Assembly: GCF_022869165.1 (NCBI RefSeq)
Contig: NZ_CP094929.1
Coordinates: forward strand, 1,612,001 to 1,676,000
Direction of reading: 5' to 3'
DNA length: 64,000 nt
From: Sphaerochaeta associata
GTDB taxonomy: Bacteria; Spirochaetota; Spirochaetia; Sphaerochaetales; Sphaerochaetaceae
Shown: positions 43,316 to 47,407 of the stretch, piece after piece
Position numbering within the stretch: position 1 is the first letter of the stretch
How the letters are laid out: every line of letters begins with the position of its first letter
The notes under the pieces: model-generated
What the model saw: the letters and a program-made list of their open reading frames with translations, nothing else
Told to the model about the DNA's origin: nothing
The model's database searches: none
Made by a program: the position numbers and the translations under genes

Positions 43316-43753
43316 TCATGCTTCCAACACAAAGGTAACCGGTCCGTCATTCATATACGAAACGTCCATATGCGCACCAAAGCGGCCGGCGGCCACTGAA
43401 TATCCCATCGATTTGAAGAGTAGGAGAGCTTCTTCATACAAGGCCTCTGCCTCCTTTGGGTCGGCCGCATCATCATATGAGGGGCGATTTCCCTTGCGAA
43501 GGTTGGCAAGCAAGGTGAATTGGCTGACTACCAAAAGTTGTCCACCAACTTCATCCAACGCCTTGTTCATTTTGCCCATCTCATCGGAAAAAACACGAAG
43601 CTTGACAATTTTTCGGCACAACCAGGATAGGTTCTGCTTCGAATCTCCCTTGCCTATCCCCAAATACACCAACAAGCCATGGTCGATGCAGCCCACCACT
43701 TCCCGATCAACGACAACCTGAGCATGCTTTACCCGTTGGATAACAGCTTTCAT
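43316..43753 (-). CDS. dtd: D-aminoacyl-tRNA deacylase
   Basis: A 145 aa DTD enzyme that removes D-amino acids (and glycine mischarged on tRNA-Ala) from tRNA. The two signature elements are SQFTLLANLRKGNRPSY with the catalytic Thr region, and the C-terminal NDGPVTFVLEA. The length is the family standard. It is coupled to rpe by a 4-base overlap. Confidence 0.95.
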   Translation of the reverse strand: MKAVIQRVKHAQVVVDREVVGCIDHGLLVYLGIGKGDSKQNLSWLCRKIVKLRVFSDEMGKMNKALDEVGGQLLVVSQFTLLANLRKGNRPSYDDAADPKEAEALYEEALLLFKSMGYSVAAGRFGAHMDVSYMNDGPVTFVLEA

Positions 43754-44418
43754 ACCCTTGCGTGTTCCACCATCGCCTGGACAAAAGAAAAACGGTCCTG
43801 TTCACAGAAAAAGGCACTGCCGCAGACAGCCACATCAGCTCCCAGTCTTGCAATGGTTCCCACCGTCGACAGATTGATGCCGCCGTCGACGCTGATCAAA
43901 TAGTCGTATCCTTTCTTCTCCCTGATTGAAGCCAGTTCGCTGATTTTCTCCAAGGTTGAAGGAATCAGGCTCTGGCCGCCGAATCCGGGGTTGACAGTCA
44001 TGATGAGGATAAGGTCGACCATGTCCAGGACCGGAAGAATCGACGTGACCGAGGAGGAAGGGATAAGCGATACGCCGGCTTTGCATCCGCTGTCCTTGAT
44101 CATCTGCAACGTCCTGTGAAGATGCACCGAAGCCTCGGCATGCACGGTAATGTAATCACTGCCGCTCTGCGCAAAGTGGGCAACATATCGTTCAGGTTCA
44201 TTGACCATCAGATGGGTGTCAAAAACCAGATCGGAGTGAGGACGCAAGTCTTTGATGAACTTGGGGCCGAAGGTGATGTTGGGTACAAACATGCCGTCCA
44301 TGACATCGAGATGAACCCATTGAGCACCACTTTTGTTGATGCTTTCCACTTCCTCGGCGGTACGGGAAAAATCAGATGAAAGCATGCTTGGTGCGATAAT
44401 CAGGGATGTTTTTTCCAT
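43750..44418 (-). CDS. rpe: Ribulose-phosphate 3-epimerase
   Basis: A 222 aa TIM-barrel enzyme of the pentose phosphate pathway, interconverting ribulose-5-phosphate and xylulose-5-phosphate. IAPSMLSSDF, HLDVMDGMFVPNITFGP (metal His and Asp), DTHLMV, MTVNPGFGGQ and ISVDGGIN are diagnostic. There is no usable ribosome site: the GGAG lies only one base before the ATG. The promoter's predicted start of transcription is the A of the ATG itself. Confidence 0.96.
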   Translation of the reverse strand: MEKTSLIIAPSMLSSDFSRTAEEVESINKSGAQWVHLDVMDGMFVPNITFGPKFIKDLRPHSDLVFDTHLMVNEPERYVAHFAQSGSDYITVHAEASVHLHRTLQMIKDSGCKAGVSLIPSSSVTSILPVLDMVDLILIMTVNPGFGGQSLIPSTLEKISELASIREKKGYDYLISVDGGINLSTVGTIARLGADVAVCGSAFFCEQDRFSFVQAMVEHARV

Positions 44419-44515: not shown

Positions 44516-44544
44516 TTGCTAGTTTTTTCAAAGCATGGTATAGT
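44516..44544 (+). promoter_or_regulatory. Promoter of the greA fusion gene
   Basis: TTGCTA (44516-44521), 17 bases and TATAGT (44539-44544), with the start expected near 44551. The leader is about 95 bases and contains a terminator. Confidence 0.78.
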
Positions 44545-44550
44545 AATGTA

Positions 44551-44607
44551 AGTTGATTGAAATGACAAACCCGAGCAGACTATGACCCGGTCTGCCCGGT
44601 TTCTTTT
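44551..44607 (+). ncRNA. Candidate greA leader RNA (GraL-like attenuator)
   Basis: From the predicted start at about 44551 to the end of an intrinsic terminator at 44607 is a transcript of about 57 bases. The hairpin pairs AAACC (44567-44571) with GGTTT (44598-44602) and GCAGAC (44575-44580) with GTCTGC (44590-44595), with one bulge and one mismatch between, and ends in GGTTTCTTTT. A seven-residue reading frame MTNPSRL (44562-44585) runs into the hairpin, but no ribosome site supports it. E. coli greA has an equivalent promoter-terminator leader making GraL RNAs. Confidence 0.6.
44567..44607 (+). terminator. Intrinsic terminator inside the greA leader
   Basis: The stem is about twelve pairs, the outer GGTTT arm runs into CTTTT, and 38 bases remain to the ATG at 44646. 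The upstream rpe gene points away, so the terminator can only act on transcripts from the greA promoter. Confidence 0.72.
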
Positions 44608-44645
44608 ACGTCTGAGAATATGGATAAATATGTTTGGAGGAAGCC

Positions 44646-47366
44646 ATGGGATTCCAGGAGATTGAGAACTTACTGAAAGAAGAGCAGTGGACAAGAACTA
44701 CGGTGCAAACCTATACGGTCAACAGCTTTCAGACTCTTGATGCCCAAATCAAAGAGTTGGATGAGGAGCAGAAGACCGAGGCTAAAAACCTATGTGACAA
44801 GCACCTCGCTGAGCGGGAGCGCAACAGCATCATTGCAATGTACATCAGTGGTTCCATCCAATTGGAACGAAAAGGTGCTGATGACTATCTCCAGCTTCTC
44901 AATCTGATTGAGATGTTTATGGAGAACAAGAAGTGGAACGTGGTTGAGATGCTGTGCGCCAAGATCTTGAGCCGCAGTGAAAACAAGCACGCCCTTCGCC
45001 TTCTCTCCTCCAGTTATGAACAGACTGGCAGGGAGGATGAGAAATTCGCCCTTTGGGAACGATTGGTGAAAGTCGACTACGAGGAAGTGGACATCGTCCG
45101 CTATCTGGCAGTCCATGCCAACCAAAAAGGTTCCAAGGACAAGGCGATCGGTTTTTACAAGAAGGCCGTGCATCGTTTGATCAAGCGAAAGGACGTATCG
45201 TCGGTGCGCAGCCTGTTTGCGGCAATGCTCGAGCTTGAAGGGGAGAATTTCGGATACTTCATGTCTGTAGCCGACCAAGTGTCGGTCATCAGCAAGAGTA
45301 CCGCAATCGCCTTGCTGCGCGACCTTGAGCTTGCAAACAAGGATGACATCGACCGCCAGATTGAATGTCAGAAGAAAATGCTTTTTCTCGATCGCGAGGA
45401 CACCTTTGCCCGCGAGAACCTGATCAGAAGCTACAAGACAAAGTACAAGACCCATTCACGATTGAAGAATTGCCTGGAAAGCAGTGCCTTGACCAGTAAT
45501 TTCACCCGGGATGTACTTCACAGCATTGAAGATTTCGAGACCAACATCGCATTTGACAAGGGGACCTTCGTCTTTCAGAACAGTACCAACCGTATCGGCA
45601 GAATCCGATTTATCGATGAGAATGATGTAATCGTTGATTTTGCAGGCCAGAGTACCAAGGAAGGATCAAGACTCTCAACCTCCATGGCTTTCAAGAGCCT
45701 TCAGGCCCTTCCCAAGAGTCATATCTGGGTTCTCAAGAGTGCTCTGCCTCGTGAAAAGCTGAATAAGAAAATTCAGGAAGACATCACGTGGACGCTGAAC
45801 ACCTTGATGGCCAGCAACGGCGGGAAAATAAGCCTCAAGGAGATGAAAAACGAACTGGTTCCTTCCATTCTGGATGCCAAGGAGTGGACTCCCTGGCTTA
45901 ATCAGGCAAAGAAGGTATTGATGACCAATCCCCTCTTCGACCTTTCCAACAACGAAACGGATACCTATCTGTTGCGCTCCACACCCGTCAGTTACGAGGA
46001 GAAGCAGCTCTCTGTGTTCAGAGGAGAGAAGGACTTCTACGATAAAATAAAGAGCCTTAAGGATTTCATCGCGAGCAAAGGTGATGTTGAAAGTGACTTC
46101 TTCTTTGAGATGGTAAAGTATTTCAGTGATATGTTCCTTGAGGAGAATGGTGCGTTCAAACCTATTGTGATTGCAAACGATATGACCTTCAGCTCATTCC
46201 TCCTGCTTGAGGACTTGGTTAAGAAGCAGAACATGAATTTCATCAACAAGCCTGAGAACCTGACATTTGCCATGCTCTATGAGAGAGTTGAAAACATCGA
46301 GAGTTGTTTTGCAGCAATCAAGGACGCTGAGCTGAAAAAGAGCTTCATCGACCATGTCGTGGATGAAGTCGCCAATTGGCCGAAGGTGTTGGCACAGCTT
46401 TTCCCCTACTATCTGACTGGATATATCCCAGATATTTTCAGACAGAACAAGAAGACGAATGATTTTATCAGAATCTATAAGGATGCTGTCGAAAACTTCA
46501 AAGAGAAAGGCAATACCCTACTCTATCTACTGAAGAACGGAGAGGCCAAGTTGTGGGCCAAGGCCGGGATAAGTGAGGAGCAACTGCTCTTCACCAAACT
46601 GCAGTTGCTCGACTATACCAACCGTTGCATCGATAACAAGAAGGACGTCCAGGAGAATCGCAAGAATGCAAAGACCTTGATGGGTCTGCTCTTCGATGAG
46701 AAGGACATTTTCAAGTACATCGAGCAGGGCAAGGAAGAAAATGCCCAGAAGATATACAGCCTTGTAGCAAATGTATTCGACCTGCCCGGCGGCAAAAAGA
46801 TTGAGATCAAGCATGCCATCAGCGAGAAGTATCCCTCCTTCAAGTTCTTTGACGAATTGATGCCCATCGACAAGGAATCGGTTGTTCCAACCGGGCTCTT
46901 CTGCACGGCGGCCTCCTTGGACGCCAAGAAGAAGGAGCTGGAGTACATCCAGCACGTAGAGCTGCCTGAAGTCGCCCGTGAAATCGGGATGGCGCGTGAA
47001 ATGGGTGATCTCAGGGAGAACAGCGAGTACAAGTACGGTAAGGAAAAGCAAAGCCTTCTGAACAATACGTTGCGTCGACTTGCCGAGGAGATTGACCGGG
47101 CAACGGTCATCACCAAGGATAAGGTCGATCCTGAAAAGATTGGCTTCGGCACCAAGGTTGTGCTCTTCGACCACACCAAGGATCAGGAGATAGCCTATAC
47201 GATCATGGGACCGTGGGAGTCGAACCCCGATGAGAACATCATCAACCTTTCAGCCCCGTTTGGAAGAGCCTTGCTCAACCGGCAAAAGGGTGAACGGTTC
47301 TCGTTTGTCCTCAACGAGCAGAGTTACGATTTCACCGTAAAGGAACTTACCGTTCTGGACTTCTAG
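44646..47366 (+). CDS. greA: GreA transcript cleavage factor fused to a large N-terminal region
   Basis: A 906 aa protein. Residues about 755-906 are a complete GreA: coiled coil with the catalytic acidic tip MGDLRENSEYKYGKEKQ and the C-terminal FKBP-like domain (LSAPFGRALLNRQKGERFSF). GreA rescues backtracked RNA polymerase by stimulating transcript cleavage. The first 750 residues are helical repeats (TPR-like near 100-260) and a segment with FETNIAFDKGTFVFQ. Such long GreA proteins are known from other spirochaetes. ATG 44646 follows GGAGG (44636-44640). The function of the N-terminal region is not known. Confidence 0.93.
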   Translation: MGFQEIENLLKEEQWTRTTVQTYTVNSFQTLDAQIKELDEEQKTEAKNLCDKHLAERERNSIIAMYISGSIQLERKGADDYLQLLNLIEMFMENKKWNVVEMLCAKILSRSENKHALRLLSSSYEQTGREDEKFALWERLVKVDYEEVDIVRYLAVHANQKGSKDKAIGFYKKAVHRLIKRKDVSSVRSLFAAMLELEGENFGYFMSVADQVSVISKSTAIALLRDLELANKDDIDRQIECQKKMLFLDREDTFARENLIRSYKTKYKTHSRLKNCLESSALTSNFTRDVLHSIEDFETNIAFDKGTFVFQNSTNRIGRIRFIDENDVIVDFAGQSTKEGSRLSTSMAFKSLQALPKSHIWVLKSALPREKLNKKIQEDITWTLNTLMASNGGKISLKEMKNELVPSILDAKEWTPWLNQAKKVLMTNPLFDLSNNETDTYLLRSTPVSYEEKQLSVFRGEKDFYDKIKSLKDFIASKGDVESDFFFEMVKYFSDMFLEENGAFKPIVIANDMTFSSFLLLEDLVKKQNMNFINKPENLTFAMLYERVENIESCFAAIKDAELKKSFIDHVVDEVANWPKVLAQLFPYYLTGYIPDIFRQNKKTNDFIRIYKDAVENFKEKGNTLLYLLKNGEAKLWAKAGISEEQLLFTKLQLLDYTNRCIDNKKDVQENRKNAKTLMGLLFDEKDIFKYIEQGKEENAQKIYSLVANVFDLPGGKKIEIKHAISEKYPSFKFFDELMPIDKESVVPTGLFCTAASLDAKKKELEYIQHVELPEVAREIGMAREMGDLRENSEYKYGKEKQSLLNNTLRRLAEEIDRATVITKDKVDPEKIGFGTKVVLFDHTKDQEIAYTIMGPWESNPDENIINLSAPFGRALLNRQKGERFSFVLNEQSYDFTVKELTVLDF

Positions 47367-47375
47367 CCGATTCAA

Positions 47376-47407
47376 GGCCCCGGTTGAAAAAAAGACTGGG
47401 GCCTTTG
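47376..47407 (+). terminator. Terminator after greA
   Basis: A strong stem GGCCCCGGT (47376-47384) with ACTGGGGCC (47395-47403), then TTTGTATTG. One G-T pair and an A-rich loop are present. Confidence 0.8.

Follow-up and report, generated by a model that had tools for sequence, protein, structure and literature searches.

The leader closest in layout to the one described here is GraL of Escherichia coli, in which a promoter belonging to greA is followed by an intrinsic terminator and then by greA itself (Potrykus et al. 2010; Dylewski et al. 2019, PMC6829880). In this system GreA increases termination at GraL and its residue D41 is needed; deletion of greA raises a leader fusion 3.5-fold and lowers GraL 4-fold (PMC6829880). 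Repression is abolished in log phase when the hairpin arms are swapped with their pairing kept, and an unknown factor has been invoked for the regulation (PMC6829880). The GreA feedback was never reproduced in vitro, and GraL also acts in trans, on the nudE mRNA (PMC6829880). Leaders likewise carrying an attenuator upstream of a gene of the greA/rnk family were predicted in Enterobacteria, Pseudomonas, Yersinia and bacilli (Naville and Gautheret 2010, PMC2965389). The text of that study does not mention spirochaetes, and a search of open-licence papers gave neither a report on spirochaete greA leaders nor RNA data for any Sphaerochaeta.

The greA leader of Sphaerochaeta associata, whose genome is a single contig of 3.55 Mb, was analysed in a 64,000-nucleotide stretch of DNA (the window), the numbering of which is used throughout. 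On the forward strand, a consensus match to a sigma-70-type promoter (44516-44544) is made of the -35 element TTGCTA (44516-44521), a 17-nt spacer and the -10 element TATAGT (44539-44544), the latter preceded by TG. Transcription is predicted to start at about 44551. A 5' segment of some 20 nt (44551-44570) precedes the terminator hairpin core CCGAGCAGACTATGACCCGGTCTGCCCGG (44571-44599), which was recognized by its fold, conservation and covariation, and the U-tract TTTCTTTT (44600-44607). The terminator placed at 44567-44607 by the first-pass annotation corresponds to this core with flanking A/U and the U-tract, and all the coordinates given there for the promoter, the terminator and the 38 nt between the U-tract end and the greA ATG (44646) were found to be correct. 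A Shine-Dalgarno sequence GGAGG lies at 44636-44640. The greA gene (44646-47366, forward strand; NCBIfam NF011309 / PRK14720) encodes a TPR-like N-terminal region fused to GreA and is followed by a terminator of its own with a perfect stem (47374-47405, -21.5 kcal/mol).

The upstream neighbour is rpe, coding for ribulose-phosphate 3-epimerase (43750-44418, reverse strand; named from the sequence and an earlier reading). As rpe is divergent, the leader terminator cannot serve an upstream gene, and it stands between the greA promoter and greA. Family leaders are T-rich downstream of the hairpin (6.4 of 8 positions) but not A-rich upstream of it (3.1 of 8). The T-tract is thus on the greA side only and the terminator would act in the greA direction only, which agrees with the earlier proposal that it concerns greA transcripts alone; a terminator for the opposite strand was ruled out, the left side having no A-tract.

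The same annotation had recognized the layout of GraL here without its sequence, and the comparison bears this out. About 20 nt precede the hairpin in Sphaerochaeta and 19 in E. coli (PMC6829880), and a short terminated RNA is expected here as well. The E. coli hairpin, GACCTGGGACTTGTACCCGGGTC, is nevertheless unrelated, so that the sequence homology expected of a member of the GraL RNA family was not found. The greA neighbours differ as well, being yhbY and dacB in E. coli and rpe in Sphaerochaeta. Like riboswitch and T-box attenuators, the leader would terminate transcription early in a 5' UTR; unlike them, it has no aptamer, alternative structure or Rfam family, the only hit of the Rfam search being MicC at 27 bits against a gathering score of 90, a chance match. 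The predicted greA/rnk leaders were reported with a clear antiterminator (PMC2965389), whereas none is detectable in the Sphaerochaeta leader: the longest complement to the left arm in the 5' segment (3.47) does not exceed that in shuffled sequences (3.55). An attenuator based on alternative pairing of the 5' arm was accordingly set aside.

Taken alone, the sequence of this leader makes a weak and rather ordinary case for a promoter-terminator unit. Within 1 kb, 3 promoter-like and 2 terminator-like sites were counted, compared with 1.2 and 0.6 in shuffled sequences, and the fold of the hairpin has a z-score of -0.56. The case therefore rests on comparison. The greA fusion was detected in 24 of the 26 genomes of the genus. 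Promoter, hairpin, U-tract and Shine-Dalgarno sequence follow each other in fixed order in all 24 genus leaders with an intact 5' end; loss of the hairpin in close relatives, named beforehand as an outcome that would speak against the element, was thus not seen in the genus. In the genus the hairpin reads CCGAGCAGRC...GTCTGCCCGG, 70-77 nt 5' of the ATG, the right arm being CTGCGCGG or CTGCACGA in three leaders. GreA was found in 20 of the 22 genera of the family Sphaerochaetaceae, and a hairpin 5'-CCGAGC…GCCCGG-UUU occupies the same place in 41 of the 46 leaders that came from outside the genus of S. associata (g1). This amounts to 65 of 70 leaders and 17 of 19 sampled genera. A TTGC-type -35, a 17-nt spacer and a TATA-type -10 occur at the equivalent place in most family leaders, and the predicted start lies about 5-24 nt before the hairpin, a distance computed as that from the -10 to the hairpin less six. 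As judged from these alignments, conservation puts the leader element far beyond chance.

The element was nonetheless lost in four leaders, one of genus g6 (G030; L058) and three of g13 (G037, G053 and G065; L065-L067), while that of G059 carries a remodelled hairpin. Remodelled forms without the mismatch described below occur in g3, g15, g17, g18 and g21. These losses and changes imply that the hairpin is not essential. Genera g6 and g13 retain greA without it and can be regarded as natural knock-outs of the element. In one further leader (L031, from G044 of g20) 211 nt separate the hairpin from the greA start that was chosen, far more than elsewhere, which could reflect a mis-called start or inserted sequence.

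The hairpin of S. associata is made of 7+3 pairs around an A44574·C44596 mismatch located three pairs from the base of the stem. The two parts of the stem evolve differently, and the compensatory changes that the first-pass annotation had proposed to look for in Sphaerochaetaceae leaders were found in the inner stem only. There, pairs 7-10 vary freely and still pair, with 30 two-sided changes against 8.0±2.8 in shuffled alignments (0/500); 85.5% of the cells are paired, a share that drops to 40% or less when the partner is slid. In the outer stem the sequence is frozen. Among 55 non-redundant hairpins, pairs 3, 5 and 6 are G-C, G-C and C-G almost without exception, and pair 4 retains its left A in 55/55, facing C in 39 of them, U in 12, G in 3 and A in 1. 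Genus-weighted information reaches 2.0 bits at each of the left positions 3-5, compared with 0.04-0.56 in the flanks; as GAGC served as the anchor of the alignment rows, these four letters are in part invariant by construction and the fair statistic is the 65 of 70 leaders. Covariation of the inner stem on top of a frozen outer stem indicates that RNA pairing is selected, at an orthologous greA throughout, and suggests a further constraint, at the level of sequence, on the outer stem. Leader hairpins have a mean stability of -13.0 kcal/mol, and the A·C mismatch costs about 4.8 kcal/mol, which its repair would add. The frozen arms and the mismatch probably keep the terminator incomplete and form a sequence-specific target.

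Several controls addressed the specificity of the element. The exact motif pattern has one copy in the 3.55 Mb genome, at greA. A covariance model built from 40 leaders, with rough E-values, gave its best family match at greA, and each genome has a single strong copy there. When the matching loci were fetched, greA was adjacent in 24/24 family loci and in 0/13 non-family loci. The single genomic copy and the location of the non-family matches away from greA rule out a generic terminator or repeat family. In these genomes, the terminators at the 3' end of greA mostly surpass the leader hairpin in strength (about -14 to -31 kcal/mol), are mostly perfectly paired, and were present in most congeners with sequences unrelated between species, although a few calls were over-extended or spurious and none was found in 7 loci. 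The leader terminator thus combines weakness with conservation, whereas the one at the gene end is strong but not conserved. Interruption of the U-tract was dropped as a special trait because the control terminators also lack U6, and a feature common to both sets is not evidence. A DNA-binding inverted repeat was likewise rejected, the spacing of the arms ranging from about 5 to 33 nt in the 55 hairpins, unlike that of a dimer site.

Outside the family, the CCGAGC hairpin was absent before greA in 27 other Spirochaetota loci and in most of 21 further loci. In these loci greA closely follows a gene for a TPR protein or another gene, and wherever the flank extends far enough, a divergent rpe lies upstream of the TPR gene. 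Across much of the class, a conserved gene directly upstream of greA encodes a TPR protein of about 310 aa (e.g. L110, L112 and L117). It is absent from 61/61 family genomes tested by a search that found it in 6/6 non-family genomes chosen as positive control. The TPR gene is also missing from two other families, f56 and f57, in which greA faces rpe directly, yet no such leader hairpin is seen there; one locus checked in them (L204) gave a single weak, unrelated terminator-like call. The idea of an ancestral leader inherited from the lost TPR gene was rejected, such a hairpin being found neither before the outgroup TPR gene nor in f56 and f57. The simplest account of this distribution is that greA was inherited vertically and acquired the hairpin in the Sphaerochaetaceae lineage. 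Its absence from other spirochaetes argues for an origin independent of GraL, and early termination as a control of greA, as in E. coli, appears to have arisen twice. Unlike GraL, the leader feeds a TPR-fused GreA of 906 aa. The catalytic loop of this protein is intact, the GDLRENxE motif being conserved with D788 and E791. Second matches to the GreA domain alone, besides the fusion, occur in some genomes of the family (G028:C13:22122-22595; G047:C68:16625-17098; G060:C4:154809-155222; and G089, C10:2609-3100 and C166:5101-5592).

On balance, and with a slight preference over the other readings combined, the element is best explained as a cis-acting transcription attenuator of greA, with the level of GreA as its most likely controller. 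RNA polymerase starting at about 44551 would make the hairpin and the U-tract within some 55 nt; we infer that a share of the transcripts ends there as a short RNA and that the remainder reads into greA. A ribosome or an antiterminator would hardly fit in the roughly 20 nt before the hairpin, so the division between the two outcomes would be set by the polymerase and the proteins on it. By analogy with E. coli, more GreA would give more termination and hence less greA. In a workable scheme, the mismatch would slow completion of the hairpin, the polymerase would pause and backtrack over the U-tract, and cleavage stimulated by GreA would return it to a terminating register, so that termination would rise with GreA. 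The frozen arms can be seen as the evolutionary counterpart of the E. coli arm-swap result. More tentatively, at somewhat under even chances, CCGAGC/GCnCGG with its invariant left A could be a regulatory RNA site recognized in a sequence-specific way, by the elongation machinery or a partner protein; GreA autoregulation would then have evolved independently and converged on the GraL architecture.

A simpler reading, which seems to us about half as probable as attenuation governed by GreA, is that of a weak terminator without any sensing, which would keep greA expression at a fixed proportion of promoter output. Its addition may have followed the loss of the TPR gene, by which greA came to lie first behind the rpe-divergent promoter; the position of greA outside the family, mostly second behind a gene that all tested family genomes lack, fits this account, as does a stem that is weakened yet conserved. 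Such a device, however, needs only a given stability, and leaves unexplained why the outer pairs do not swap orientation and the left A never changes while the inner stem changes freely. The same contrast between a sequence-frozen outer stem and a variable inner stem and loop would suit a binding site for a dedicated protein setting termination, be it the TPR-like part of the GreA fusion or a different factor specific to the family, all the more as arm sequence also matters in E. coli, where an additional factor was invoked (PMC6829880). This proposal is nonetheless improbable: other spirochaetes carry the same TPR-GreA fusion without the hairpin, and the N-terminal region matches TPR designs only and no RNA-binding family.

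A terminated RNA of about 55 nt acting mainly in trans, as GraL does on nudE (PMC6829880), is very improbable here, since the conserved sequence lies inside the stem only, the 5' segment and the loop, where seeds would sit, are unconserved, and no conserved exposed seed was seen. Ribosome-mediated attenuation through a leader peptide deserves almost no weight. The seven-codon frame ATGACAAACCCGAGCAGACTATGA (44562-44585) pointed out in the first-pass annotation does exist and overlaps the 5' arm, but comparison refutes a role for it: the frame is kept in the closest relatives only, other congeners having other frames, no stop or no start, it has no Shine-Dalgarno sequence and begins about 11 nt from the predicted start. 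No conserved translated short frame overlies the hairpin, and the 5' segment holds no conserved open frame.

By these comparisons, the leader of Sphaerochaetaceae is a putative greA attenuator, specific to the lineage and unrelated in origin to enterobacterial GraL, whose architecture it shares. The GraL loop of E. coli has been regarded as one of a kind, difficult to classify and with a factor still missing. With its far better conserved core and its clear lineage of origin, a greA attenuator that arose separately would make the early-termination brake on greA a recurrent solution. For the family itself, the frozen bases, the mismatch, the natural losses and the outgroups without the hairpin would provide a comparative handle for finding the reader of the element.
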